A DNA stretch of 64,000 nt from Marinobacter salinisoli. GTDB taxonomy: Bacteria; Pseudomonadota; Gammaproteobacteria; Pseudomonadales; Oleiphilaceae. Of this stretch, positions 2,993 through 25,994 are shown in pieces. A program made the translations under genes and the position numbers. The number at the start of each line of letters is the position of its first letter. Position 1 is the first letter of the stretch. A model generated the notes under the pieces. It was given only the letters and a program-made list of their open reading frames with translations, was not told where the DNA came from and did not search any database. The stretch lies in NCBI RefSeq assembly GCF_017301335.1, contig NZ_CP071247.1, forward strand, positions 2,542,001-2,606,000, given 5' to 3'.

Positions 2993-4204
2993 ATGACCTC
3001 GCGCACCGAGCGCATTCTAATAATCGACGCCGATGAAACGGCCCGAACCAACCTTGCCCACTATCTGGAAGCCCGCGGCTTTTATGTGTCCGGATTCGCC
3101 GATGTTGTCTCTGCCGAGGCAGTGTTTGTTGAGGGGATTCCAGACGTAATCTTTGTCGACCTTCCACCGGATACGATCCGGGAGCTGGCGAACCGGCTTG
3201 AAGAGGCGGAGAGCTTCACGCCGATTGTTTGCTGTTCGGCTGGCAGAACGAGTGCAGACGTGGTCGCTGCGCTTCGGGCGGGGGCCTCAGACTTCCTGCT
3301 CAAGCCCTGTAAAGGCGACAAGGCCGCATTGGATGACGTCATCGAAAAGCTGTTTGACCGGGTGCGGGTCAATCGACTGAATCAGCTTTACCGGCAGGAA
3401 CTCGAAGAAGCCAATCGGGATCTGCGCAATGGCATCGCAGAGCTGAGGGCCGATCAGCGCGCCGGTCGCAAGGTTCAGCTCAAAATGTTGCCCGACCGCG
3501 AGCAGGACATTGTGGGTCTGCACGTGGAGCATCTGATCAAACCGTCGCTCTACCTTAGCGGTGATTTCCTGGATTATTTTCAGATTACCGAAGACCAGGT
3601 TCTGGTCTATATTGCTGACGTTTCAGGGCATGGTGCCAGTTCGGCGTTCGTAACCGTTTTGCTCAAGAACCTGACTAACCGCCTGCAGCGCAATCTGCGT
3701 CGTGGATCCAGCGACGATATTCTTTATCCCCAGCGGTTTCTAGAGCGGATCAATTCGGAATTGCTGGATACAGGGCTGGGTAAACACGTAACGGTATTCG
3801 TTGGCCTGATTTCACTCAGCAAGCGTACGTTAACCTACGCCGTTGGGGCGCATTTCCCGATGCCCATTCTGTCGTTTGAGGGGGGCACCACCGCGTTTCT
3901 TGAGGGGAGTGGTCTTCCGGTGGGATTGTTTGAAAGTCCTGAGTGGGAGGTTTACGAGACCCCTCTGGACAAACCATTCCACCTGATTCTGTTCTCTGAC
4001 GGCATTCTCGAGGTGATTCGGGCCCGGGGACTTGACGATAAGGAGAAGACGTTACTTGAACTCGTGTCAGGTGGGCGTCACACTATCGCCTCTTTAAATG
4101 AGGCTCTTAATCTCGACGAGATCACGGAATTACCTGACGATATAGCTATCGTTTCGGTGACTGATACCTTGAATACGTCAGATTCCCCGTCGTCGACCGA
4201 GTGA
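2993..4204 (+). CDS. Response regulator with C-terminal PP2C (SpoIIE-type) phosphatase, RssB/CrsR-like
   Basis: 403 residues. The N-terminal receiver domain (1-120) has acidic residues at the end of beta-1 (LIIDADE), the phospho-acceptor D56 (VIFVD) and the conserved lysine K104 (FLLKPC). A helical linker (about 125-165) leads to a PP2C phosphatase domain with metal-binding segments SGDFLDYF, ADVSGHG and FSDGILE. In related bacteria such phosphatases dephosphorylate an anti-sigma-factor antagonist and so control a sigma factor by partner switching; Shewanella CrsR acting on CrsA and RpoS is the closest precedent I know. The next gene is a STAS antagonist that overlaps this stop codon if translated from its GTG, which fits. 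No serine-kinase domain is present in this protein. Confidence 0.88.
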   Translation: MTSRTERILIIDADETARTNLAHYLEARGFYVSGFADVVSAEAVFVEGIPDVIFVDLPPDTIRELANRLEEAESFTPIVCCSAGRTSADVVAALRAGASDFLLKPCKGDKAALDDVIEKLFDRVRVNRLNQLYRQELEEANRDLRNGIAELRADQRAGRKVQLKMLPDREQDIVGLHVEHLIKPSLYLSGDFLDYFQITEDQVLVYIADVSGHGASSAFVTVLLKNLTNRLQRNLRRGSSDDILYPQRFLERINSELLDTGLGKHVTVFVGLISLSKRTLTYAVGAHFPMPILSFEGGTTAFLEGSGLPVGLFESPEWEVYETPLDKPFHLILFSDGILEVIRARGLDDKEKTLLELVSGGRHTIASLNEALNLDEITELPDDIAIVSVTDTLNTSDSPSSTE

Positions 4205-4218
4205 CAGTGTGGAGCATA

Positions 4219-4710
4219 ATGGCTGGTTATAAGATCCTGCAGGCTGAAAGCCAGGGCATTTATGTCCTGAAGTTTATCGGGGAAATTCGCCTGAATCTGT
4301 GTTCAACGCTGGATAATCTGGTGGAATCCATCACCCGAGACCCCCAGTTCAAGACCGTGGTGATCGACCTTACCGAAACTGAGGTCATCGACAGCACCAC
4401 GCTCGGTCTGCTTGCTAAAATCGCAATGGCAGCCCAGCAGCAAAGCCACTTCCTGCCCACACTCATCTCCACCAACCCCGATGTAACCCGCATCATCACG
4501 TCCATGGGGTTCGACAAAATCTTCATCATTGTCCGCGAACCCGCATCCCGAATCGAAGAGCTTGAGGAAATTCCCGTTCTGAAAGCCAGCGAACAACAGG
4601 TTCGTGACAAGGTGCTGGATGCTCACAAGGTTCTGATGGGGCTAAATAGCCGTAACAGAGAAGAATTCAAGAATCTGGTGCAGGCGCTGGAGTGCGAAGA
4701 GCCAAGTTGA
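4219..4710 (+). CDS. STAS-domain anti-sigma factor antagonist
   Basis: From the ATG at 4219 the protein is 163 residues; an in-frame GTG at 4201 would overlap the preceding stop but adds only six residues. The first ~105 residues form a STAS domain with the diagnostic segment EVIDSTTLGLLAKIA, in which the serine after Asp is the residue phosphorylated in SpoIIAA/RsbV-type antagonists. A helical tail of about 50 residues follows. It is translationally linked to the phosphatase upstream, so it is the probable substrate. It would bind a kinase/anti-sigma factor when dephosphorylated. That kinase is not encoded in this window. Confidence 0.85.
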   Translation: MAGYKILQAESQGIYVLKFIGEIRLNLCSTLDNLVESITRDPQFKTVVIDLTETEVIDSTTLGLLAKIAMAAQQQSHFLPTLISTNPDVTRIITSMGFDKIFIIVREPASRIEELEEIPVLKASEQQVRDKVLDAHKVLMGLNSRNREEFKNLVQALECEEPS

Positions 4711-4775
4711 ATGGCGCAAACCGCTGCCTGAACCTAATCGGGTGTTCACCCAGACCATAACAACACGGATTAGCT

Positions 4776-5843
4776 ATGCCGGAATCAAACTCGCCCCAAA
4801 AAAACGGGGCAAAGGGAGCAGCCCACGACGTTGCGGTGCTTGGTGGTGGCAGCTTCGGTACTGCCATGGCGAAGGTACTTGGAGAAAACGGTCATACCGT
4901 GCATTTCTGGATGCGGGACCAAAAGCAGGCCGCAGAAATCGAGGCTACAGGGGTAAACAGCCGCTACATGCCCGGTGTGGAGCTCAGCGGTGATATCCAG
5001 CCAACCACCGATATGGCGTCGGCCATCGCCAACGCCGAAATTGTGTTTGTCGCCATTCCCAGTAAGGCTTTTCGGGCCGTAATCAGACAGCACAAGTCTG
5101 ATTTTCGCGATGGTCAGATTGTCATCAGTCTGACCAAGGGTATTGAGCGGGACGGATTCAAGCTGATGTCGGAAATCCTTCAGGAGGAGATTCCGCGTTG
5201 TCGTATCGGCGTGCTCAGTGGCCCAAACCTGGCGGCGGAGATTGCCGCCCGCGACCTGACCGCCACGGTCATTGCCGCCAAGGATCCTGAGGTTCGTCGC
5301 ACGGTTCAGGATCTGCTTGGTTGTGAATACTTTCGCGTCTATGCCAACGTCGATGTCTATGGTGTTGAGCTCGCGGGGGCGCTGAAAAACATCTATGCCA
5401 TCGTTGCCGGCCTGGCTGAGGCCCTGGAAATGGGCGAAAACGCGCAAGCGATGCTGATCACCCGCGGCCTGGCGGAGATGAGCCGGTTTGCGGTCAGTCT
5501 TGGAGCCAATCCCATGACCTTTATGGGGCTGGCAGGTGTGGGCGACCTGATCGTGACCTGTACGTCGTCCAAAAGCCGTAATTTCCGGGTTGGGCACGCC
5601 GTCGGCAAAGGAAAATCCCTGGATGAGGCCGTGAAGGAGCTGGGGCAGGTGGCGGAAGGCATCTATACCTTGGAGCTGGTGAAAGAGAAGGCTGAAAGCG
5701 TCGGCATTTATATGCCCCTGGTTCGCGGGTTGTATGAAATTCTCTATGGCTCTGCCTCGATCAGAGCCGTCATTAATAGCCTGATGATGGCAGTTCAGAA
5801 CTCCGACGTGGAGTTCATTCTGCCGCGTACCATCAGTCAGTGA
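4776..5843 (+). CDS. gpsA: Glycerol-3-phosphate dehydrogenase [NAD(P)+]
   Basis: 355 residues. It reduces dihydroxyacetone phosphate to sn-glycerol-3-phosphate, the entry point for phospholipid synthesis, in the cytosol. The NAD-binding motif is VLGGGSFGTAMA (about residues 22-33), the catalytic lysine lies in GALKNIYAIVAG, and the family segments GLAGVGDLIVTC and KSRNFRVG are intact. About 16 extra polar residues precede the Rossmann fold, which suggests the true start could be slightly downstream, although no other ATG lies between. It heads a rightward group with sixA (20-bp gap), the radical SAM gene and a DUF1285 gene. Confidence 0.95.
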   Translation: MPESNSPQKNGAKGAAHDVAVLGGGSFGTAMAKVLGENGHTVHFWMRDQKQAAEIEATGVNSRYMPGVELSGDIQPTTDMASAIANAEIVFVAIPSKAFRAVIRQHKSDFRDGQIVISLTKGIERDGFKLMSEILQEEIPRCRIGVLSGPNLAAEIAARDLTATVIAAKDPEVRRTVQDLLGCEYFRVYANVDVYGVELAGALKNIYAIVAGLAEALEMGENAQAMLITRGLAEMSRFAVSLGANPMTFMGLAGVGDLIVTCTSSKSRNFRVGHAVGKGKSLDEAVKELGQVAEGIYTLELVKEKAESVGIYMPLVRGLYEILYGSASIRAVINSLMMAVQNSDVEFILPRTISQ

Positions 5844-5862
5844 CGGGAGGCGGCAGCGGCAA

Positions 5863-6312
5863 ATGGAACTGTTCATCATGCGCCATGGCGAGGCTGGCTG
5901 GCATACGCTGGATAATCAGCGCGAATTGACCGAGGCCGGTCGATATCAGGTCGCTGAAGTCGCGGCGCAGATCGCTGAGTCCGAGTGGCGCCCCCGTATA
6001 ATCTGGAGCAGCCCTTTCGTGCGCGCGCGGCAAACCGCGGCCATCGTGTCTGAAATCCTCAATTGCCCGGTCGAAGAGCGTGAATTTTTGACGCCGGATG
6101 ATGATCCCGGGCAGTGCCTGGATGCTCTGCTGGAAACGGACGAATATCCGCTCATGCTTGTTTCCCACATGCCCTTCGTGGGTGGCTTTTCGACACTGCT
6201 GGTGGATGGCCATCGGCGCGGCATTCCGTTTATGACGGCCCAGGCGGTGCTGCTCGACCTTCCTGTTGTCGGTCCGGGTTGTGCCGACTTGAAAGACCAG
6301 TTTTTGCCCTGA
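5863..6312 (+). CDS. sixA: Phosphohistidine phosphatase SixA
   Basis: 149 residues, the usual short length of SixA. The histidine-phosphatase motif RHGEA is at residues 8-12 and the second catalytic histidine lies in LVSHMPFVGG. SixA removes phosphate from histidine, in E. coli from the ArcB HPt domain and the nitrogen phosphotransferase protein NPr. A Shine-Dalgarno-like GGGAGG sits just before the ATG, 10-20 bases after the gpsA stop, so the two genes are probably cotranscribed. Substrate in this organism is inferred from the family. Confidence 0.9.
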   Translation: MELFIMRHGEAGWHTLDNQRELTEAGRYQVAEVAAQIAESEWRPRIIWSSPFVRARQTAAIVSEILNCPVEEREFLTPDDDPGQCLDALLETDEYPLMLVSHMPFVGGFSTLLVDGHRRGIPFMTAQAVLLDLPVVGPGCADLKDQFLP

Positions 6313-6353
6313 ATACATCTGCATGACACCCGTATTTGAGACCGTTCAACGCT

Positions 6354-7250
6354 ATGTACAGTTTTCCGATTGATTACATCGAACCGGTTTTTCGCCCGCC
6401 CAGCGAGGCAAAATCCCTGATTTTGCCGGTGACGAATGGCTGTTCATGGAATAAATGCACTTTCTGTGAAATGTATACTCAGCCGCAAAAGAAGTTTCGT
6501 GCCCGAAAGCCTGAGCAGATTCGCGCCGATATCGATAAGGCTGCGCGAGCCCTCGGGGGAGTCAAGCGGGTATTCCTTGCGGATGGCGACGCCATGGTAT
6601 TGCCGACACGCCGTCTACTTGAAATTCTCACTGATCTGAAATCTGCATTCCCGGGCCTTGAGCGCGTTTCAAGCTACTGCCTGCCACGCAACCTCGCGAA
6701 AAAGACGGTGCAAGAATTGAAGCAGCTACGTGAAGCAGGCCTCCAGATGCTCTACGTGGGAATGGAATCCGGTGACGATGAGGTTTTGCGACGAGTCAAT
6801 AAAGGTGAGACCTGGGAGTCGACTCGCTCCGCGCTGCTGAAAATTCGGGAGGCCGGGCTGACAAGCTCGGTGATGGTCCTGAATGGTCTGGGCGGCGAAG
6901 TCCTGTCGCGCCAGCATGCGGTCAATACCGCAACGCTGTGCAATGAAGCCCAACCCGATTATCTGTCCACCCTTGTTGTCAGCTTTCCGCAAGGCGAAGA
7001 ACGCTTCCGGGAAGGATTCGGCAACGATTTCGTGCCGCTGTCCCAGCAGGGGCTGTTCGAGGAGATTCGGGTCTTTCTCGAGCATCTTGAGCTCGAAAAT
7101 ACTGTGTTCAGAAGCGATCACGCGTCTAATTATCTGGTACTGAAGGGCATTCTTGGTCGCGACAAGCGGCAGATGCTCGAACAAATTCGCCTTGCCATCA
7201 CCAGTCCGGGCGCGGTCCCACTTCGGGCTGAATGGATGCGCGGCCTGTAA
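6354..7250 (+). CDS. Radical SAM protein of unknown substrate
   Basis: 298 residues from the ATG at 6354; an in-frame TTG at 6336 would add six residues but neither has a clear Shine-Dalgarno site. The cluster-binding motif is NGCSWNKCTFC, which is CX4CX2C rather than the canonical CX3CX2C. Downstream, GMESGDDEVLRRVNKGE matches the SAM-contact region of BchE/HemN-like radical SAM enzymes, and VMVLNGLGGE follows in the barrel. There is no separate cobalamin or C-terminal domain. It lies between sixA and a DUF1285 gene and is probably in the same transcript. Function is unknown. Confidence 0.8.
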   Translation: MYSFPIDYIEPVFRPPSEAKSLILPVTNGCSWNKCTFCEMYTQPQKKFRARKPEQIRADIDKAARALGGVKRVFLADGDAMVLPTRRLLEILTDLKSAFPGLERVSSYCLPRNLAKKTVQELKQLREAGLQMLYVGMESGDDEVLRRVNKGETWESTRSALLKIREAGLTSSVMVLNGLGGEVLSRQHAVNTATLCNEAQPDYLSTLVVSFPQGEERFREGFGNDFVPLSQQGLFEEIRVFLEHLELENTVFRSDHASNYLVLKGILGRDKRQMLEQIRLAITSPGAVPLRAEWMRGL

Positions 7251-14634: not shown

Positions 14635-15054
14635 ATGATCTGGTTAAAGGCATTTGTTGCTGGTTTTTTATCGACGCTGATATTCCATCAAGGGTTGTTC
14701 GCGTTGCTGCATTTGGGAGGAATGACACCAGTTCCTGCTTACAACATGACACCGGTTCCGCCGCTCGGTGTGCCTTCGGTGGTTTCCATAAGTTTCTTCG
14801 GTGGATTGTGGGCTATGGCGCTTTGGCTTGTGGTGGGCCGGCTGCCGTCTGCAAGGTACTGGCTTGGGCATATCGTGCTCGGCGCTCTTGCGCCGACTGC
14901 AGTGGCCATGCTGTTGGTATTCCCGCTCAAGGGTCTGGATGTCAGCGCTCAGACTTGGATAGGCGGCTTTCTTCTGAACGGAGCCTGGGGGCTTGGCGTG
15001 GCCGTTATCATGCGGATACTGGGCGGAACAAGGCCAGCTACCGGCTCTTATTAA
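14635..15054 (+). CDS. Integral membrane protein, about four helices
   Basis: 139 residues from the ATG at 14635, chosen because AAGGA lies seven bases upstream; an earlier in-frame ATG at 14617 lacks one. Hydrophobic helices are visible at about 2-22, 45-65, 78-98 and 108-130. A short internal duplication, MTPVPAYN followed by MTPVPP, lies in the first loop. It ends 31 bp before the saccharopine-dehydrogenase-like gene and may be cotranscribed. No function can be given. Confidence 0.7.
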   Translation: MIWLKAFVAGFLSTLIFHQGLFALLHLGGMTPVPAYNMTPVPPLGVPSVVSISFFGGLWAMALWLVVGRLPSARYWLGHIVLGALAPTAVAMLLVFPLKGLDVSAQTWIGGFLLNGAWGLGVAVIMRILGGTRPATGSY

Positions 15055-15085
15055 ATCTCACCTGTCTGGATAAAAGGGATAAAAA

Positions 15086-16327
15086 ATGACCAAATCGGAA
15101 AAGACGGCTTACGATATAGTGGTGTTTGGCGCGACCAGTTTTGTCGGCCAGATCCTTACTAACTACCTACTATCCACTTACGGCGTCGGAAAGACGGTTA
15201 ATTGGGCGCTGGCCGGGCGCTCCGAGAGCAAGCTCAAAACCCTGAAGTCGGATCTGGGCGAAGGCGCCAAAGACATTCCGCTCATTATCGCGGATGCCGC
15301 CGATGAAACCGCACTCCGCGCCATGTGCGAGCAAACCCGGGTGATTATTTCCACCGTTGGCCCTTACGCGCTCTATGGCGAGCCATTGGTCAAGGCCTGC
15401 GTCGAAACCGGCACCGACTACTGCGACCTGACTGGCGAGGTGCAGTGGATTCGCCGGATGATCCAGCAATACGAAGAGCAGGCCAAGGCATCTGGAGCTC
15501 GAATAGTTCACTGCTGCGGTTTCGACTCGATTCCATCGGATATGGGCGTCTGGTTCCTGCAGAACAAAGCCGAGGAAACCTTTGGCGGGCCCTGCGAGGA
15601 CGTGCGTATGCGCGTAAAGGCAGCAAAAGGCGGAATGTCAGGTGGCACCGTTGCCTCCATGATGAATATTGCCCGGGAAGCCGGAGCAGACCCCCAGCTT
15701 CGTAAAGAGCTGGCAAACCCGTTCTCGCTGTGCCCTCCGGAGCACCGCTCTGAAACCCGTCAGCCAAGCCTTAAAAACGCCGAGTTCGACAAGACTTTTG
15801 ACGTCTGGCTGGCCCCGTTTGTGATGGGGGCTATCAATACCCGCATCGTGCATCGCTCCAACGCACTCCAGGGCGCGCGGTATGGCAAGGAGTTTACCTA
15901 CGACGAAGCCATGATGACCGGGAAAGGCAACAAGGGCCGCCTGGGCGCTTACGGTGTAACGGGAGCACTGGCCGGTTTCTTCACCGCCTCTGCGTTCAAA
16001 CCCACTCGCTGGTTGGTTGGCAAATTTGTCCCTCAGCCTGGTGAAGGTCCCACGCCGGACGAGCAGAAGAACGGCTTTTATGACCTGCGTTTCGTTGGGC
16101 GAACGGCAGACGGCAAGACCATGATCACCAAAGTGACCGGCGATCGGGATCCTGGCTACGGATCGACCGGTAAAATGCTTGGTGAAGCTGGCATGTGCCT
16201 GGCGTTCGATGTGCCGAGTGACAAGGAAGGCGGCTTCTGGACACCATCTACTCTGCTGGATGGTGACCTGCTGGAACGACTGACGAGCAAAGCCGGTCTG
16301 ACTTTCGAAGTAGTGGAAACACGCTAA
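15086..16327 (+). CDS. Saccharopine dehydrogenase-like / trans-acting enoyl reductase family protein
   Basis: 413 residues. The N-terminal Rossmann motif reads VVFGATSFVGQIL (about residues 12-24), followed by NWALAGRSESKL and IISTVGPYALYGEPLVKAC, the typical pattern of the saccharopine dehydrogenase NADP-binding domain in its short-chain, lipid-associated branch (mycobacterial trans-enoyl reductase and mammalian SCCPDH relatives). It therefore probably reduces a lipid or polyketide-like substrate with NADPH rather than making lysine. AAAGGGAT precedes the ATG. A SAM methyltransferase gene follows after 28 bp. Confidence 0.82.
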   Translation: MTKSEKTAYDIVVFGATSFVGQILTNYLLSTYGVGKTVNWALAGRSESKLKTLKSDLGEGAKDIPLIIADAADETALRAMCEQTRVIISTVGPYALYGEPLVKACVETGTDYCDLTGEVQWIRRMIQQYEEQAKASGARIVHCCGFDSIPSDMGVWFLQNKAEETFGGPCEDVRMRVKAAKGGMSGGTVASMMNIAREAGADPQLRKELANPFSLCPPEHRSETRQPSLKNAEFDKTFDVWLAPFVMGAINTRIVHRSNALQGARYGKEFTYDEAMMTGKGNKGRLGAYGVTGALAGFFTASAFKPTRWLVGKFVPQPGEGPTPDEQKNGFYDLRFVGRTADGKTMITKVTGDRDPGYGSTGKMLGEAGMCLAFDVPSDKEGGFWTPSTLLDGDLLERLTSKAGLTFEVVETR

Positions 16328-17064: not shown

Positions 17065-17151
17065 GCCCGGATGGTGAAATTGGTAGACACAAGAGACTTA
17101 AAATCTCTCGGCCGCAAGGCCGTGCCGGTTCGATTCCGGCTCCGGGCACCA
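17065..17151 (+). tRNA. tRNA-Leu (anticodon UAA)
   Basis: 87 bases including an encoded CCA. The acceptor stem GCCCGG(A)/(T)CCGGGC closes, the D-arm reads TGGTGAAATTGGTAGACA, the anticodon arm AGAGA-CTTAAAA-TCTCT presents TAA at 17099-17101, the long class II variable arm is CGGCCGCAAGGCCG, and the T-arm GCCGGTTCGATTCCGGC is canonical. It is the integration site of the element that follows. Confidence 0.97.
17096..17151 (+). repeat. attL: 3' part of tRNA-Leu, left end of the integrative element
   Basis: These 56 bases recur at 25654-25709 with four mismatches, all in the variable arm. The last 31 bases and the first 15 are identical. Element genes start immediately downstream. Confidence 0.9.
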
Positions 17152-17205
17152 ATAAAAACAGAGTGTTACGAATTTCTAATTTTTCATTCTTAGTTTCGTT
17201 TTTTC

Positions 17206-17227
17206 ATGTAGACGCAATGTAGACAAA
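17206..17227 (+). repeat. Tandem ATGTAGAC pair near attL (candidate integrase arm site)
   Basis: ATGTAGAC occurs twice with a three-base spacer, then AAA. The same arrangement in the same orientation occurs at 25505-25526, differing only in the spacer. It is 55 bp inside the left end. Confidence 0.7.
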
Positions 17228-17372: not shown

Positions 17373-19193
17373 GTGCTGAATAAAATGAAGATTATTGAAA
17401 AGGTTGAAATTAGTTACTTTCGCTCTGTCTACTCGCTCTCATTGGCCAAGTGTCAGGATGTAAACATTCTTATCGGACAGAATGATGCGGGTAAGTCTAA
17501 TATCCTCAAGGCGCTCAACCTTTTCTTTAATAACGAAACAGAACTGACATCGCCGGTAGAATTTTTGGAGGATCTATCGCGATCACGCGCCGAGGAGGCA
17601 CGTGCCGCCAAGGGCAAAACCACGATCTGGATAAAAGTTACATTTAGAAACTACGAAAATTGGAGCTCCCTTCCGGAAACTTTCGTGGTTAAGCGCACGT
17701 GGACACGGTATTCCGACCAGCCTGAAACGGTCGTTGTGGGGAGTAAGAAGAAAATCCCGAACACGACTCTTGGACGATTCCTTTCAAAAATCGCCTTTCA
17801 CTACGTACCAGCCGTCCGAGGGCGCGATATTTTTTCGCATTATTTGACCATGCTCCACGATGCCCTCATAGATGATGAAAAAGCAGGTATCTCAGAAGCT
17901 TCCACTGGGCTCGTGACGCGAATCAATCAAAGCACTGAGGAGATGGCTAAGGACATTGAGGCGAGGCTGGGTTTCGAGAGCTCTATAGGCATGCCGCGAG
18001 ATCTAAAGCATTTGTTTACGGCATTGGATTTCACAACAAAATTCTCTCATCACGAAGTCCCGCTAAAAAAGCGCGGAGATGGAATTCAAGCAAGACACAT
18101 TCCTTTCATACTCAGCTTCGTTGCATCACAGTCCAGAAAAAACCACATTTGGGGTTACGAGGAGCCTGAAAACTCTTTAGAGATGGGCAGAGCGTTTGAT
18201 CTCGCTGATCAGTTCCAAGCGGAATTTGCGAGAAATAACCAAATATTTCTATCAACTCATTCGCCCGCTTTTTATTCGCTGGATCAGGATAACGTCAAAA
18301 AATGGCTGGTAAAAAGTTGCGACGGGCATGATTTTTCAGGTAAAGCCACTGCTGCATTTTCGCTAGACTCTGTCGCCGACTTCGATAAGTCAGTGGGTGT
18401 GGCGGCGCTTATATCTGAGAGGGCGAAGGAGTTACATGATCAAATAGAGCTGTTGCAGGTTTCCTCAGAAGAGCTTAGGGGTCGTTTGCAAGATGCGGAA
18501 ACGCCTCAGGTGATAGTGGAAGGCCCGACCGATGTTACAATTCTGAATCATGTCTATGGGCTCCTATACCCTGATCAAGCCCCAATCTTTGAGTTTATAT
18601 CAGCTGCAAGCGCAAAAAAGGTAGTATCTTTTGTGCTTGGTGTGGCAGATCTCGGAAGGGAATACCCATTTCCTATTACAGGGCTTCTTGACGACGATCA
18701 CGAAGGGAGAAGTCAATTTAATGTGAACAAACAGAATTCTTACCGATCGCTTGCGGGCACTCAATTAAGAACCCTAGATGGTGTTCGAGGAATCTATCTA
18801 GGGTTCTTGCCTAAGCCCGACTGGGTGACGGCGGCTGAGGCAACGCTCAAGGACCAGGGGCGCGAAGCTCAACTTCCGGTAACCATAGAAACGCTGGTCT
18901 CAAAAGAGTTCATGGCGGCATCGATTGCTGCTGGTGAAATCTCGTTCAGCGATGAAATGACTAAAGCAAAAAATGCAAATTTTGAAGTACCAGTCAACAT
19001 ATCTGATGAGCTTGGTCGACATCTTGAAGATGATGATCGTTATCTGGTGCAAAAGGTTGATGAACAGTCCAAAATTCCATTTTCGGAGTACTTTCAAGCC
19101 AACGCGACATTACAAGATTGTGAAGCCTTTCGGCCAATATTCGAATGGCTGGAAACGACCGTTCAGCTATTTCAGCAGGCGCGGGATGAGTGA
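17373..19193 (+). CDS. OLD-family ATP-dependent nuclease (AAA ATPase + TOPRIM)
   Basis: 606 residues from a GTG at 17373; an ATG at 17385 is an equally possible start. The N-terminal SMC-like ATPase has Walker A GQNDAGKS (residues 35-42), an ABC-type signature region KKRGDGIQARHIPF, Walker B with catalytic glutamates in HIWGYEEPENSLE, and an H-loop STHSPAFYSL. The C-terminal TOPRIM domain has the metal glutamate in VIVEGPTDV (about residue 383) and the Asp triad in LLDDDHEG (about 440). OLD proteins cleave DNA and act in phage exclusion; P2 Old is the type member. No GajB-like helicase or AriB-like partner is adjacent, so it looks like a stand-alone class. It is the only plus-strand gene of the element and is AT-richer than its neighbours. 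Confidence 0.88.
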   Translation: MLNKMKIIEKVEISYFRSVYSLSLAKCQDVNILIGQNDAGKSNILKALNLFFNNETELTSPVEFLEDLSRSRAEEARAAKGKTTIWIKVTFRNYENWSSLPETFVVKRTWTRYSDQPETVVVGSKKKIPNTTLGRFLSKIAFHYVPAVRGRDIFSHYLTMLHDALIDDEKAGISEASTGLVTRINQSTEEMAKDIEARLGFESSIGMPRDLKHLFTALDFTTKFSHHEVPLKKRGDGIQARHIPFILSFVASQSRKNHIWGYEEPENSLEMGRAFDLADQFQAEFARNNQIFLSTHSPAFYSLDQDNVKKWLVKSCDGHDFSGKATAAFSLDSVADFDKSVGVAALISERAKELHDQIELLQVSSEELRGRLQDAETPQVIVEGPTDVTILNHVYGLLYPDQAPIFEFISAASAKKVVSFVLGVADLGREYPFPITGLLDDDHEGRSQFNVNKQNSYRSLAGTQLRTLDGVRGIYLGFLPKPDWVTAAEATLKDQGREAQLPVTIETLVSKEFMAASIAAGEISFSDEMTKAKNANFEVPVNISDELGRHLEDDDRYLVQKVDEQSKIPFSEYFQANATLQDCEAFRPIFEWLETTVQLFQQARDE

Positions 19194-19298: not shown

Positions 19299-21128
19299 TC
19301 AACCTAACGCTATGAACGATGGCGCCCCCATTCCTCTATCCTGTAGGGCTATTGATTGAAACCCACCTGAGACGGGCACCTCCGTACAGTTATTGACAGA
19401 ACTCCAAGGTGGCGAGTGAACCTCACCACTCAGCTTCTCCCAGGCATAAGCGGTGTCGTCGGGCAATGCGGCGATTTCTGCTTCTGTCGGAGTCCGTACC
19501 TGAGTTAGCTGCTTGAGGCGATCCAGCCAAGAGGAGTCGGAATTAAGTGCTGGCGCAGCTTTTTTCGGTCGCTTTACTTCCCAGCGCAAAGCCCGAGTTA
19601 TCCAGTAGCGACCTTGAGCGAGTAGGCCAAACAGTTTGCCCTTGGCAGGCTCTCCATATTGGTTAACAGGGCTATCCAGGTACTCGCCGGTTCCCTGATC
19701 GACCTCCAGCCATTTGGCCGTTTACATCGGTTGGTTTGCCCGTTTCGCAACCGGCCCATTCATGGCTTCGATAAAGCCAGCCCAATCACTTTTATCCGCT
19801 GCTTGTCGAGCCTTCTCAACAATCTCGTCATCAGCATGGTCCAAGCGACGAAGTTCTCTCCAGACGGTTACAGGCGGTCCGCCGATCTGCTGGAATTGTC
19901 GGATTCCGTGGATACTGGCCCAAGCACGAACACGAGCGGCAACGTCCTTAGTTAGGTTTCCGTACCAATCCTCAGCATCCTCACCGTTTTCCTGAAACTC
20001 GCCGTCGATGTTCTTGCAGATGTACTTCACGATGTAGCCGGTTGCTGACCCTCGGTCGTAGTCAATATCGACCGCCTCGAATCTGGCTTCTTGCGCTCCG
20101 GGTTCGTCGCCATCCTCAAGCAATGCGTAGTCCCGAATGATTTCGACCATACGCCTTTTCTGTTCAGGCTCAACAAAGAGCATCAAATGCCAATGCGGGG
20201 TCCCGTCATGGTGGGGTTCGACAATCCGTAGCCCGTAGGTCCGTACTTCTTCCCGATCCAGCTGAGCACGAATGCGGGCCCAGACCGAGTTCAGGTAGCG
20301 TTGGGCTTCGCTGGGAGTCGATCCGTTGTATTTCGGGTTTGGTTGGCCTGTCACTTTGACCGGGTGGTATTTGCTGGGAGTCGTGATCGTGAGAAATACC
20401 CCAACATGACTCAGGTCCTGCGCGATCTTTTCGAATCCTGAGGCGCGGACGATTAACTCAGAACGGCGTACGAAGGGATTGCTGACTGACAGGGCGGCCA
20501 GCTCCGCAAGAGTGTATTCCTGGCACTGATCGTTAACAGCGATCATTTCTTCGAGGAGGGAGCGATTACGGGAGATCTGCTCTTGGTGGAGCTTTAATCC
20601 CCAATCCGATACGTAGACGGCTTTTTGCTTGGAAACAAGGCCGTAGTCTCGAGCTACATTGTCCAATACCCGCTTTTGTTTCTTTCGAATAAGTCGTCGC
20701 CACCAGACTTCGTCCTTGGCTCTCTCGATACAGCCTTTGTGTGTCTGACTCTTCGGGAGCTCGAACCCGTATCGAGCTAGTAGCTTTTGGATGGCTTTGA
20801 GCGTTTGGGCTGTGTCTTTGAAGCGGGCGTCTGTTTCGCTGCAGACTTTTGCTCTGGATCTAGCGAAATCTTTTAGCTGAGCATCATCCAGCGTGAACTT
20901 CAGGTCGCGTCGTTGCAGCTTTGATTCCAGTGCTTCCAACTCCATTTCCAGCGCAATGCACCCCCGATCCTGACCTATTAGGTACAGGCGGGGTTCAAGC
21001 CTGGGAAACACCAAGGGGAACCGTTCGCGAAAACGGGTGACTGCCTGCCGGGTTTGGCGGGTACCGATGGTGTAAAGCCGGCCTTGGGTCCGGTAGTACC
21101 TGAATTGCTGTTGGGCTGAGGGGTTCAA
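19299..21128 (-). pseudogene. Phage replication initiator gpA (HUH endonuclease), interrupted by an in-frame TAA
   Basis: The open part is 19722-21128 (468 residues). It contains motif I FLTITTP (about 245), the HUH motif HWH at 312-314 (in TPHWHLMLF) and the two catalytic tyrosines Y365 and Y369 (GYIVKY), as in the P2 gpA rolling-circle initiators. At 19724-19722 the frame meets TAA, yet reading on gives a further 140 codons of typical gpA C-terminus (AKWLEVDQGTGEYLD, YGEPAKGKLFGLL, YWITRALRWEVKRP) ending at 19299. The break is thus a single nonsense codon (CAA to TAA would explain it). The catalytic half is intact, so partial activity is possible. It follows the short ORF at 21125 with overlapping codons. 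Confidence 0.85.
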
Positions 21129-22401: not shown

Positions 22402-23226
22402 TTAGCCTTTCGGCCTGCCTCGTCGTTTATCTTCGGGGCGGGGGTCGAGGTCTTTTATCCAGTTACGAACGGTATTGGGGTCCGTGTAATATTTTGCGCC
22501 GCAATACTCTCGAATCACCGGGTGATCCATGATGGCGCCCTGGGTTAGGGTTTTATCTGCTTTCCAGAGGTTACCTGCCACTTCTCTGCAAAGCATCCGG
22601 TGCCGCTGGGCGTCCGTTAGTCGGCTCCAAAAACGGTCCGCCTCTGCTTGCTTGATCTTTCCGACCGTTGTGAGCGGTTCCTCGTCGTCGCTGGGCGATG
22701 TTTCTTTAGCAACGGTATCCTCGACGTCCTCTCCCTCGGCAAACCGTTCCTTTTCTTCTTTGGTGAACCAAAAGTCGGGCAGGTCGACACCCTTTTTGCG
22801 GCAAAACTCTTCAATGATTCCGCGGTCTAAGTGGATGCTATCGAGCTTTTCTTTATCGTAAACGCGGTACTTGTAGCACTGCTCTAATCCCTCTGCGGCC
22901 TCATCATGGCGTTTGCACCATCGCTCCTTCCGCTCAAAATAGGTTTCGCGCATTTCAGCGTACCAAACATCCTCGTTCTTGAGGTCATGAGGTTTCTCTA
23001 TGCCTGCGAGGTGTTCGCTGAACGATGGAAAATTACGTTCGCTTTTCAGCTCGACTCCGGCTTTCGTAAGAATTGGCAAGTGGTGACGCACCTGCATATT
23101 AGTAATGCTGCGCAGCAGGTCTTGCACAGGGAGAGGTGGTGCATCCGGGTCTGATGTATTTGGATCGGTGTTGTGCCAACGGTGAGCAATCTCCCATATG
23201 CTCAGGTGATCAAAGTCCGTCAACAT
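22402..23226 (-). CDS. Unknown protein adjacent to the integrase
   Basis: 274 residues, soluble, rich in Asp, Glu, Lys and Arg. The C-terminus reads WIKDLDPRPEDKRRGRPKG and ends in an AT-hook-like RGRP motif, so DNA binding is possible. A WIKDL-type segment preceded by PNTVRNW suggests a small helix-turn-helix near residues 235-260. It begins 2 bases after the integrase stop and is very probably in the integrase transcript. No recognised family. Confidence 0.65.
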   Translation of the reverse strand: MLTDFDHLSIWEIAHRWHNTDPNTSDPDAPPLPVQDLLRSITNMQVRHHLPILTKAGVELKSERNFPSFSEHLAGIEKPHDLKNEDVWYAEMRETYFERKERWCKRHDEAAEGLEQCYKYRVYDKEKLDSIHLDRGIIEEFCRKKGVDLPDFWFTKEEKERFAEGEDVEDTVAKETSPSDDEEPLTTVGKIKQAEADRFWSRLTDAQRHRMLCREVAGNLWKADKTLTQGAIMDHPVIREYCGAKYYTDPNTVRNWIKDLDPRPEDKRRGRPKG

Positions 23227-23228
23227 CG

Positions 23229-24449
23229 TTACGCTCCAGGTTCTTCAGTTGATGAGTGGGGAATAATCTCTGCTTTGGTCAGAAAGAAATTCGTGATTTT
23301 CTGCATGGGCACTCGCAAACGCTCAACATCAAAAATAATGTACCCCTCAGTCACATCATTGGGATCTTTTTGGTTCATCAATCGCTTGAGAGCATAGGCC
23401 GGGATATCGAGTCGTTCGGCTGCGGTGATAAAGGTTCGTCGCAAATCGTGGAGTGTGAACTCGACGCCGGAGAGCTTCGCGACTCTGTTAATCGCTGTTC
23501 TCGGCTCAGACAGGTGACCGCGCTCGGCATCGCTCGGAAACACGTAGGGACTGCTGCGCTCCTTGAAGCGTCGGCTTAATAACGCTTCGATGGCGTTACT
23601 GAATGGCAAACAATGGATGCGGCTGTTCTTCGTCGCCGTGATCGTAATGGTTTTGTCGTGGAAGTCGATTTGATCCCAGGTGAGGGTGGCAGCTTCCGTC
23701 CGTCGAAGGCCCGTCAATAACACCAGGTGCAGATAATCGCGGGTTGTCTGGTTGTTCAGCTGCAGCGTGGCGTCGTACCACGGTTTGAGCTGGTGATCCT
23801 TGATCAGGGACTGGCGCTTTTCCACCTTGTACCAGGCGCGCTGATGGCTGAGCACGTTAACCGGATTCGCGACCAGGAACGGCTTTCCGGACGCATCCTG
23901 ATAGCGCTGCAGCGCATGATTGAACACGGCGCGCAGAATTCGCATTCCGTTATCGGCGCGGGCATGGCTGCGTTGGCCATACTCGGCGTGACGGCTGAGG
24001 ACCATATCGCGGGAAATGTCCTTGAGCGGCTTGCTCTGCCAGTCCTTGAACATCTCCCGCATGGAGCGGTGGTAGTCGTTCAGCGTGTTCGGCTTCAGGT
24101 TCTTCCGGGTGGCCAGATAATCCTCGAAGGCGTCCTTGAGCGTAACGCGTTGAGCTCGTTTTTCCTGAACCTCCCGAATCGGGTCAACGCCCGAGGCAAC
24201 TTTGCCCAAAAACTTCATCGCCTCTTTGCGCGCCTGTTCGACCGTCAGGTTGCCGTAACGGCCGAGCGTCTTTCGTTTAACCCGTCCATCGACGCGCTTT
24301 TCAACGATGAAAGACTTGGCGCCGCCACTGGTGACGCGCAGGCCAAACCCGGCGATGGCCGAATCCCGGTAAAACGCCTGGGCGGCCGATCCGTCCGGCT
24401 TGGGGGCGGGAATCTCGACCTTATCGACAAAGCTCTTGGTGATTCGCAT
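23229..24449 (-). CDS. Tyrosine-type integrase, P4-like
   Basis: 406 residues. The N-terminal DUF4102-type domain (AIAGFGLRVTSGGAKSFIVEKRV) and KTLGRYGNLTVEQARKEA mark the P4 integrase family. The core-binding domain spans about 100-200 and the catalytic domain has the first Arg in LTGLRRTEAATLTW, the HxxR box in TLHDLRRTF, and the nucleophilic tyrosine in VTEGYIIF. It recombines the attachment site in tRNA-Leu. It sits between the unknown gene and the HNH-HIT gene, at the end of the element away from the intact tRNA, which is the less usual location. Confidence 0.93.
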   Translation of the reverse strand: MRITKSFVDKVEIPAPKPDGSAAQAFYRDSAIAGFGLRVTSGGAKSFIVEKRVDGRVKRKTLGRYGNLTVEQARKEAMKFLGKVASGVDPIREVQEKRAQRVTLKDAFEDYLATRKNLKPNTLNDYHRSMREMFKDWQSKPLKDISRDMVLSRHAEYGQRSHARADNGMRILRAVFNHALQRYQDASGKPFLVANPVNVLSHQRAWYKVEKRQSLIKDHQLKPWYDATLQLNNQTTRDYLHLVLLTGLRRTEAATLTWDQIDFHDKTITITATKNSRIHCLPFSNAIEALLSRRFKERSSPYVFPSDAERGHLSEPRTAINRVAKLSGVEFTLHDLRRTFITAAERLDIPAYALKRLMNQKDPNDVTEGYIIFDVERLRVPMQKITNFFLTKAEIIPHSSTEEPGA

Positions 24450-24459
24450 GGCTGGCCCC

Positions 24460-25506
24460 TCAATAATCCGCTTTGTCCGGGAACACCTTGCGGACGCCGC
24501 CGCGCGGGTTCTCCTGATCGCCGTCTCGGCGGGGAATCAGATGGATGTGCGCGTGAAAGACCGACTGTCCGGCACTGGCACCGGCATTGGTGCCCATGTT
24601 GAAGCCGGTAATCGAGGGATCTTCTTCCATTAGAACAGCGCGGCGCTCGTGGAGCAGGGCGTTGATCGCGTTGAGTTCCGCCGGGTTCAGATCGAAATAG
24701 GTTTGGACGTGTCGTCGGGGGATGGCCAGACAGTGCCCTGGCGAGACCGGGAAATTGTCTTTCAGCAGCAGGGCGAGCTCGTTTTCCGCGAGCACGGTAA
24801 TCTGGTTCTGTTCGGGGTGGCAGAACAGGCAATCGGGCGCCCGGTGTTCGTATTGCTTGGGCCAGTCCCGGAAATCGGTATCGTCTCGGTCCCGCTTCAT
24901 GGCGTTGCAGGAATAACAGAGGGCCTGCAGATTGTTTAGATCGTTGGTGCCGCCGTGATTGACCGGGATGATGTGGTCCACTTCCAGGGCTTTCTCGGAC
25001 GCTAGCACGCCACATAGCTGGCACCGGAATTCGGCGCGCTTCAGCGCCTCATAGCGCAGCGATCCCGGAATCTCGTCGCGGCTGTGGTCGCGGTGGGCGA
25101 AGATCGCCTCCTTGCCGCGCTTTTCGATGTACTCGGCGAGGCGAATCTCACAGAGCAGCTGGAGCCGTTTGCGCTCGGACGGAGAGAGTTCGTCATACCC
25201 GGCTAAGAAATAACGACTGGACCCGCGAGGACCCTTTTCCACGATCCCATGTTTCGCCAACACCTGGCCGGGCATCTTTTTGACGATTTCGCGGTAGTAA
25301 CGGAGCTGAGAATCGTCGTGCAGGAGGATGGATTCGGCAATGTCTTCCGCCGAGGCCTCGCCGTGATGTTCGAGCAGGTACGCAAGCATGACCGGATGGT
25401 AAATGTGCGACATCGACATGCGCTGTTCGATGAAGTTCTGAAGGCGGGTGTACGTCGTTTCGGACCGATCCACGGAAGTCTCCCTGTGAGTCTCTTGTGT
25501 CCCCAT
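24460..25506 (-). CDS. Fusion of winged-helix-like region, HNH nuclease domain and HIT domain
   Basis: 348 residues. About 1-115 is helical and looks like a winged-helix region. The HNH domain spans about 155-205 with zinc pairs C162/C165 and C197/C200, the catalytic DH at D177-H178 and N191/N192. The HIT domain spans about 225-345: an N-terminal CLFC pair (C226/C229) and the catalytic triad HAHIH (H318, H320, H322), as in nucleotide hydrolases/transferases of the HIT superfamily. The gene precedes the integrase by 10 bp and is probably first in that transcript. The tandem ATGTAGAC site overlaps its start codon. A nuclease joined to a nucleotide-processing enzyme in a mobile element suggests defence or element control, but no function is established. 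Confidence 0.85.
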   Translation of the reverse strand: MGTQETHRETSVDRSETTYTRLQNFIEQRMSMSHIYHPVMLAYLLEHHGEASAEDIAESILLHDDSQLRYYREIVKKMPGQVLAKHGIVEKGPRGSSRYFLAGYDELSPSERKRLQLLCEIRLAEYIEKRGKEAIFAHRDHSRDEIPGSLRYEALKRAEFRCQLCGVLASEKALEVDHIIPVNHGGTNDLNNLQALCYSCNAMKRDRDDTDFRDWPKQYEHRAPDCLFCHPEQNQITVLAENELALLLKDNFPVSPGHCLAIPRRHVQTYFDLNPAELNAINALLHERRAVLMEEDPSITGFNMGTNAGASAGQSVFHAHIHLIPRRDGDQENPRGGVRKVFPDKADY

Positions 25507-25526
25507 GTAGACACTATGTAGACAAA
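25505..25526 (+). repeat. Tandem ATGTAGAC pair near attR (candidate integrase arm site)
   Basis: Same arrangement as at 17206-17227, with spacer ACT in place of GCA. It is 128 bp inside the right end and covers the start codon of the HNH-HIT gene. Confidence 0.7.
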
Positions 25527-25653
25527 ATCGGTCAAATTCTATCGGATTTCTTCAAACAACGGCAAACGACGGTTTCGAGAAAATGTCTGTAATAGGCTGT
25601 TTTATATTGGTTATTAAAATATCTTCAAAATCCGTCAAACAAGCACACAAATA

Positions 25654-25709
25654 ACTTAAAATCTCTCGACCTCACGGTCGTGCCGGTTCGATTCCGGCTC
25701 CGGGCACCA
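25654..25709 (+). repeat. attR: copy of tRNA-Leu 3' part
   Basis: 56 bases from the anticodon loop to CCA, matching 17096-17151 except at four positions in the variable arm (GCCGCAAGGC to ACCTCACGGT). Two of the changes pair with each other. It is a fragment without acceptor 5' strand or D-arm and is not a functional tRNA. Confidence 0.9.
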
Positions 25710-25994
25710 TTAGAAAAACAGTTAGGTTTCCTTCTCATCAGCGATCTCTCCAGACTGCTATTCGGGCAATTTTCTACGGCAGAAGATTTGGCACCGGCCG
25801 ATATAAAACGGATTTGATCATCTCCTCATTCGGTGTGTGCGCAGCCGGATTGATTCCGCCTACAATTAGGCAGACGGAGAACACAAAATTACGTCATGAA
25901 GAGTGCGAGTCTGTAAACGCAGACAAATCATCGTCATCTGCAGCGATTCGGTAACCTGGCCAGACCACTCGGACTCGCGGAGGATGGCTGGAAT

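Follow-up and report, generated by a model that had tools for sequence, protein, structure and literature searches.

A putative Type IV-like restriction nuclease extended by a HIT domain, carried by a small integrative element of Marinobacter salinisoli

The window analysed here is a whole stretch of 64,000 nucleotides from Marinobacter salinisoli (contig NZ_CP071247.1). It harbors an 8.6-kb integrative element with a gene for a protein composed of a predicted N-terminal winged helix, an HNH nuclease domain, and a C-terminal histidine triad (HIT) domain, hereafter HNH-HIT. We propose that HNH-HIT is probably a Type IV-like restriction nuclease extended by a HIT hydrolase, that it serves in defence, and that the element carries it as cargo. 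The winged helix, modelled as similar to the sulfur-binding domain (SBD), would bind DNA, probably modified in the backbone or in a base, and the HNH domain would cut the bound DNA; McrA-type Type IV restriction enzymes have the same order, with SBD before HNH. During the same response, the HIT domain, with its complete active site, would split a nucleotidyl bond. One may guess that its target is a free nucleotide, such as a dinucleotide, that tunes the nuclease, or else an adenylated end where the DNA was cut. Defence is the best reading because the residues of both domains are conserved together and the neighbouring genes of relatives are enriched in restriction-type genes; dependence on a nucleotide is possible.

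Domains and conservation of the HNH-HIT protein

The residues noticed when the sequence alone was read are all present. They fit the pattern of HNH domains with a zinc finger, CxxC...DH...N...CxxC (C162, C165, D177-H178, N192, C197, and C200), and the HxHxH triad in a HIT fold that marks the HIT superfamily; both domains exceed the curated Pfam cut-off. A CxxC motif (226/229) precedes the HIT domain, as in several bacterial HIT proteins, and a conserved PRGGVR tail (PRGGVR...Y) follows it. The open reading frame (ORF) described initially is real, but its translation probably starts not at the upstream ATG but at a GTG at residue 12, because the database entry for the window protein (P0001) has 337 amino acids and approximately 18 bp at the 5' end of the longer ORF are element backbone, found also in related elements without the gene.

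Search of 5.8 billion proteins yielded 2485 matches at E 1e-3. The best 120 of them (52–100% identity) all have both domains, which indicates that the pairing of HNH with HIT is not due to chance. A genome scan revealed 214 encoding stretches, the best 80 of which, matching nearly the whole protein length, were kept. According to record titles, the family occurs in Pseudomonadota, Bacteroidota, Cyanobacteria, Melainabacteria, Planctomycetota, Acidobacteria, Actinomycetota, Verrucomicrobia, Nitrospirae, Armatimonadetes, Marinimicrobia, and other phyla, as well as in two Thaumarchaeota bins; many of the records are metagenome bins, in which a stray contig is possible.

The alignment comprised 218 rows, made up of the window protein, 120 proteins, and 97 loci, some of them near-copies. 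All ten residues (C162, C165, D177, H178, N192, C197, C200, H318, H320, and H322) were found in 215 rows, the exceptions being P0111 (C200H), L033 (H320Y), and L077 (H320Q). The sample was partly selected for these residues, as the proteins were those of highest similarity and the loci had been picked up through patterns around D177-H178, C197, and H318. The joint conservation agrees with the sequence-only reading, which had named its absence as grounds for refutation. In L033 and L077, the middle HIT histidine is replaced by Tyr and Gln, respectively, with the HNH domain intact; one of these loci is near a C5 methyltransferase-like gene and the other near McrB/McrC-like genes. Pairwise distances of the three regions of the protein correlate (Mantel r 0.63, 0.65, and 0.57; none of 200 permutations as high), a pattern that common ancestry would by itself produce, provided that the regions move as a unit. 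Purifying selection was detected in each domain.

These data bear on a simpler explanation, namely, an ordinary HIT hydrolase with a functionless HNH domain or an HNH homing endonuclease. HNH and HIT domains are each common alone, and free-standing HITs are numerous, in line with such an origin. We nevertheless regard it as very improbable, since the HNH residues are complete in 217/218 relatives, selection acts on every domain, and the three regions are correlated. Here, moreover, the gene lies between integrase and att rather than within another gene.

The proposed winged helix at the N-terminus was supported by a structural model of residues 1–155. The best fold matches of this model were the SBDs of the McrA-type enzymes SprMcrA and ScoMcrA, tied with ORC2 (1w5s). 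The SBD profile gave no sequence match for the N-terminal region, and a sequence search with this region gave no convincing match. The SBD cavity residues of helix 2 (Tyr/His, Gln/Arg/Lys, and Pro) have counterparts, as assigned by motif and helix number (Y36 in 214, Q37 in 213, and P38 in 215 of 218 rows), with His37 in the window copy. The cavity residues of helix 4 (Tyr, Pro, and Ala) were not found; S66, Q67, and Y70 are located at the helix 4 start. One half of the sulfur-pocket motif is present and the other half is absent.

SprMcrA and ScoMcrA are Type IV restriction enzymes reading phosphorothioated DNA. In the window protein, too, a winged helix modelled as SBD-like precedes a zinc-type HNH nuclease, and their Y31-Q32 (SprMcrA) and H116-R117-P118 (ScoMcrA) are comparable with the Tyr-Gln-Pro motif of the HNH-HIT family. 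In contrast to them, HNH-HIT has an additional C-terminal HIT domain and a shorter N-terminal domain, lacks a recognisable Tyr-Pro..Ala half of the cavity and a sequence-level SBD match, and contains no SRA domain found by Pfam. The N-terminal domain may read a novel DNA mark. In the boldest form of this reading, which we hold to be rather unlikely, the protein would belong to a novel class of modification-dependent restriction enzymes, with a remodelled sulfur-binding-type reader that recognises this mark and a HIT domain that acts on the ends or nucleotides produced by the cut, e.g., strips AMP from 5'-adenylated ends, so that a phage ligase could not reverse the break. If true, Type IV systems would make repeated use of HIT as an 'anti-repair' or signal-clearing module.

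HNH-HIT as cargo of a small tRNA-Leu element

The assignment of the gene to a mobile element proved right. The element is inserted at tRNA-Leu and bounded by this gene and a copy of its 3' part, a 78-bp repeat with 86% identity and an identical 30-bp core at a distance of 8558 bp. It contains genes for an OLD/GajA/AriA-like ATPase, a replication initiator (GPA), an integrase, and HNH-HIT, as well as two genes without a Pfam match (Table 1). Only 10 bp separate the stop of the HNH-HIT ORF from the integrase start on the same minus strand, and from this gap the two genes are probably cotranscribed.

A search of 163 genomes of the host family for integrase matches at E 1e-60 gave 18 positives, 15 of which, own genome counted, belong to the same genus (at least 84% integrase identity). 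The distance between the integrase start and the att repeat was 199–221 bp in 11 of these 15 elements (empty slot), 1229–1231 bp in three, all with HNH-HIT, and 615 bp in L183, with a 132-aa HIT alone. A sixteenth element, from another genus, showed 224 bp. HNH-HIT is therefore cargo between integrase and att, since the slot varies in length among elements with the same integrase and is mostly empty. The HIT-only gene of L183 retains the first codons of an HNH-HIT gene and continues from there, in frame, with the HIT domain. This resembles an in-frame internal deletion of the N-terminal and HNH parts, and the encoded protein clusters with an HNH-HIT protein in the HIT tree (90/65).

The sequence-only reading had spoken of a nucleotide-dependent defence or control device, of which the defence part stands as the best reading. 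The other part would imply that the protein governs expression or excision of the integrase. Its position immediately upstream of the integrase, probably on one transcript, would suit such a function, as would the fact that all four of the 15 elements with the gene or its HIT part have it in the integrase-side slot. An integrase that dispenses with the gene in 11 of 15 elements, leaving a slot of about 200–220 bp, argues against this, and a recombinase of the recurrent clusters was located within 6 kb at only about one-quarter of 97 loci of the wider family, many of them truncated by contig ends. Control of the integrase was hence rejected and has, in our estimate, hardly any probability.

Table 1. 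Features of the HNH-HIT gene and its host element (positions in the window).
Feature	Position	Strand	Remarks
ORF with upstream ATG	24460-25506	-	348 aa
HNH-HIT gene, probable true extent	24460..25473	-	GTG start, 337 aa
N-terminal winged helix, residues 18-140	25087..25455	-	Structural model
HNH nuclease domain, residues 162-207	24886..25023	-	Pfam PF01844 E 6.5e-14, PF14279 E 2.2e-12
HIT domain, residues 234-328	24523..24807	-	Pfam E 1.5e-19; triad H318/H320/H322
attL: 3' part of tRNA-Leu(TAA) 17065-17151	17087..17164		
attR: copy of tRNA-Leu 3' part	25645..25722		
Tyrosine integrase, 10 bp downstream of HNH-HIT	23229..24449	-	Pfam PF00589, PF13356
Double TGTAGAC repeat	25504..25526, also 17205-17227		Likely arm sites
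ATPase of OLD/GajA/AriA kind, other-end cargo	17373..19193	+	Pfam AAA_15, PADLOC AriA E 9.9e-25
Phage-type replication initiator (GPA)	19722..21128	-	Pfam PF05840 E 5.8e-86, phrog_91

Two copies of the TGTAGAC repeat between att and integrase were found in 15/15 elements (14 from Marinobacter and one from another genus); they are likely integrase arm sites. No Gabija or PARIS partner of the ATPase was recognised among the genes of the element. Among the best 25 of its 85 matches, PADLOC assigned the ATPase to families other than ThsA/ThsB. PADLOC gave no match for element proteins 3–6, and Pfam detected no methyltransferase in the element. The protein encoded downstream of the integrase (22402-23226) has LSIWEIAHRW near its N-terminus and no Pfam match; its relatives are present in 9 of 15 Marinobacter elements, including this one.

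The elements of L166, L170-L181, and L183 share the tRNA-Leu, one conserved integrase and, in most, the GPA replication gene. At the tRNA-side end, different cargo is located in most of these Marinobacter genomes, by eye SIR2-like, reverse-transcriptase-like, and DUF262-like genes. Small tRNA-Leu elements with such varied slot cargo are a likely source of new defence genes.

Genes adjoining HNH-HIT in relatives

For 78 loci (L005-L082), the closest gene of at least 120 aa within 1.5 kb on each side was taken as the near set (137 genes); one gene more than 6.5 kb away per side, where the locus allowed, served as the far control (79 genes). Near neighbours were richer in restriction-type genes (HNH_2, helicases, and McrBC) than the farther genes. 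Among the best 25 of 148 Pfam families, the near set contained HNH_2 (11), ResIII (7), SLFN-g3 helicase (6), DEAD (5), Helicase_C (4), GIY_YIG_2, HNH, and AAA_22 (3 each), and McrBC, DUF3427, PLDc_2, RE_NgoFVII, and Phage_integrase (2 each), among others. In the far set (best 25 of 122), TerB, ABC_tran, Response_reg, HATPase_c, two UvrD types, and AAA_12 had two members each. With the far count taken as 1, the maximum for a family not listed with two members, Fisher tests gave p 0.03 for HNH_2, 0.14 for ResIII, and 0.20 for SLFN-g3, and p 0.007 for a rough pooled sum (26 near vs. 5 far). PADLOC at E 1e-8 detected HNH (11), REase_II (10) and HNH (10), probably the same proteins, PDC-S41 (5), and mREase_IV (3) in the near set; in the far set, it detected other defence families with at most two members each, so that the control itself contains defence genes. 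DUF3427, encoded in 18 of 299 genomes, was found twice among the 137 near genes vs. 0.002 expected, assuming 4000 genes per genome and the Pseudomonadota rate. Such neighbours do not suggest that the homologues mostly lie in ordinary chromosomal loci, the finding that would have spoken against the earlier suggestion.

A census of 97 loci was made with a 6-kb reach and cluster labels assigned by eye, many loci ending before 6 kb. A serine-recombinase cluster was found at 16 loci and a tyrosine-integrase cluster at nine, two of them Marinobacter elements. C5-methyltransferase-like genes occurred at five loci (within 4 kb at three), and another methyltransferase-like gene (cluster 7) also at five, one locus being shared. 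An obligate multi-gene system was rejected, as the top cluster reached no more than 16/97 loci.

Among viral contigs, 17 of 41 loci match well beyond HIT (L083-L099; the match of L094 begins at residue 47), and no full-length copy with at least 80% query coverage was detected in phage or plasmid records. In L086, L087, L090, L092, and L093, HNH-HIT follows a large serine recombinase, identified by eye, by about 450 bp, and four of the five have a GIY-YIG-like gene at the HNH-HIT end; these contigs represent a second kind of integrase-side cargo slot.

Regarding phosphorothioation, dndC was absent from the own genome and was above the cut-off in 0/50 HNH-HIT genomes vs. 8/200 genomes of a Pseudomonadota sample; one of the 50 had a weak match, by eye among phage-like genes. 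One of the eight dndC genomes, G535, has HNH-HIT at 15044-16096 of a 17.8-kb contig, approximately 10 kb from dndC; dndC and dndD (1.1e-151) are located at 3523-7016, with DGQHR proteins adjoining. The same contig (L239:2357-17713) contains GIY-YIG-like, DUF262-like, and more DGQHR genes. No DGQHR or SGG[KR]DST protein was seen in the available flanks of 97 other loci. This co-occurrence, one case in about 100, may have arisen by chance within a defence island; it also speaks against an enzyme that simply cuts self DNA bearing phosphorothioates. No conclusion was drawn on mutual exclusion of HNH-HIT with phosphorothioation genes, as G535 has both.

The HIT domain and its pairing with other nucleases

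The best fold and sequence match of the HIT domain was an uncharacterised HIT protein, 3imi, with about equal scores for Hint-type proteins. It has the HIT fold and triad in common with 3imi and 1y23 of Bacillus, the Ap4A phosphorylase Rv2613c, Fhit, and Hint, and differs from them in its fusion to a nuclease, its PRGGVR...Y tail, and its restriction-type neighbours. In line with the sequence-only reading, HNH-HIT might be a nucleotide-gated abortive-infection nuclease, the HIT domain of which binds or destroys a signal nucleotide (Ap4A, Ap3A, or similar) whose level changes in infection, and so switches HNH on or off. This is a possibility to which we give limited credence: the matches point to no single subfamily, the recurrent neighbours listed include no gene recognisable as signal-making, and the middle histidine is lost in 2/218 rows (L033 and L077), though binding could persist there. 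PADLOC also matched the HIT domain to ThsC of Thoeris (E 2.6e-9), likewise a HIT gene in a defence setting but not fused to HNH; PADLOC recognised no ThsA/ThsB beside HIT in this element.

Seven further genomes of the host family encode a free-standing HIT with 45–52% identity, and in six of them (L128-L133), the adjacent gene looks alike by eye. In L133, HIT overlaps by 4 bp a neighbour with a C-terminal NOV_C (PADLOC PDC-S36, 5.2e-95), the N-terminal domain of which matches a solved SBD, SBDHga1, at 1.6e-49. On Polaromonas and Aromatoleum plasmids, an HNH_4 gene comes after the HIT gene, 43 bp apart and with a 4-bp overlap, respectively; the Polaromonas HNH_4 protein has no SBD match in PDB. 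G667 has HIT at the head of a 1192-aa PLDc-ResIII-Helicase_C-DUF3427 protein, the layout given for the Type IV enzyme SauUSI in PMC3874153. SauUSI-like enzymes, which use a PLD nuclease and helicase in place of HNH, adjoin several HNH-HIT genes, and one has this N-terminal HIT. A general pairing of HIT with SauUSI was rejected, as only 1 of 18 DUF3427 loci has HIT.

A tree built from 61 HIT domains was weakly resolved, with good support for 12 of its 58 inner branches; it unites the NOV_C, HNH_4, and PLD-helicase HITs in a single set (97/88). Other free-standing HITs in phages and plasmids are without such nuclease company, and four chromosomal ones are placed, with weak support, among the HNH-HIT rows of the tree. 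The HNH-HIT label requires seven changes, at least three of them forced, and the fusions have therefore arisen or been lost repeatedly.

The ties of HITs of this broad clade to DNA nucleases, together with the fold shared by HIT and aprataxin, would also suit an end processor, taking AMP off 5'-adenylated ends that arise when phage or host ligase tries to seal the breaks made by HNH; the cuts would then remain open or be repaired correctly. We consider this improbable: the fold and sequence matches listed were HIT, Hint, Fhit, and Ap4A phosphorylase, and aprataxin was absent among them, which still leaves some probability for such a role. The Type IV-like nuclease with an added hydrolase remains our preferred reading.

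In literature searches, we found no paper on an HNH-HIT fusion in a defence, restriction, or nuclease context, in agreement with the initial remark that it was not described. 'Histidine triad' and 'anti-phage defense' occurred together only in the PADLOC paper, on ThsC, and the passages seen of papers on defence systems contained no HIT domain. Entries P0059 and P0088 bear the double name Ap4A hydrolase/5-methylcytosine-specific restriction endonuclease; as far as found, the fusion has been annotated in databases but not studied. A large multi-phylum family combines a restriction-type nuclease with an enzyme class familiar from dinucleotide and cap metabolism. If it defends against phages, it would offer a clean test of whether nucleotide hydrolases aid restriction, with the natural HIT-only deletion (L183) and the natural HIT-site variants as ready comparisons.

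The own genome also encodes a 1282-aa SauUSI-like DUF3427 protein (G000:C1:3129309-3129668; L233:3262-7110). In L222:3444-6715, a Nudix-like ORF (by eye) and a SauUSI-like gene share a 4-bp overlap, a further instance of a nucleotide hydrolase adjoining a Type IV-like enzyme.
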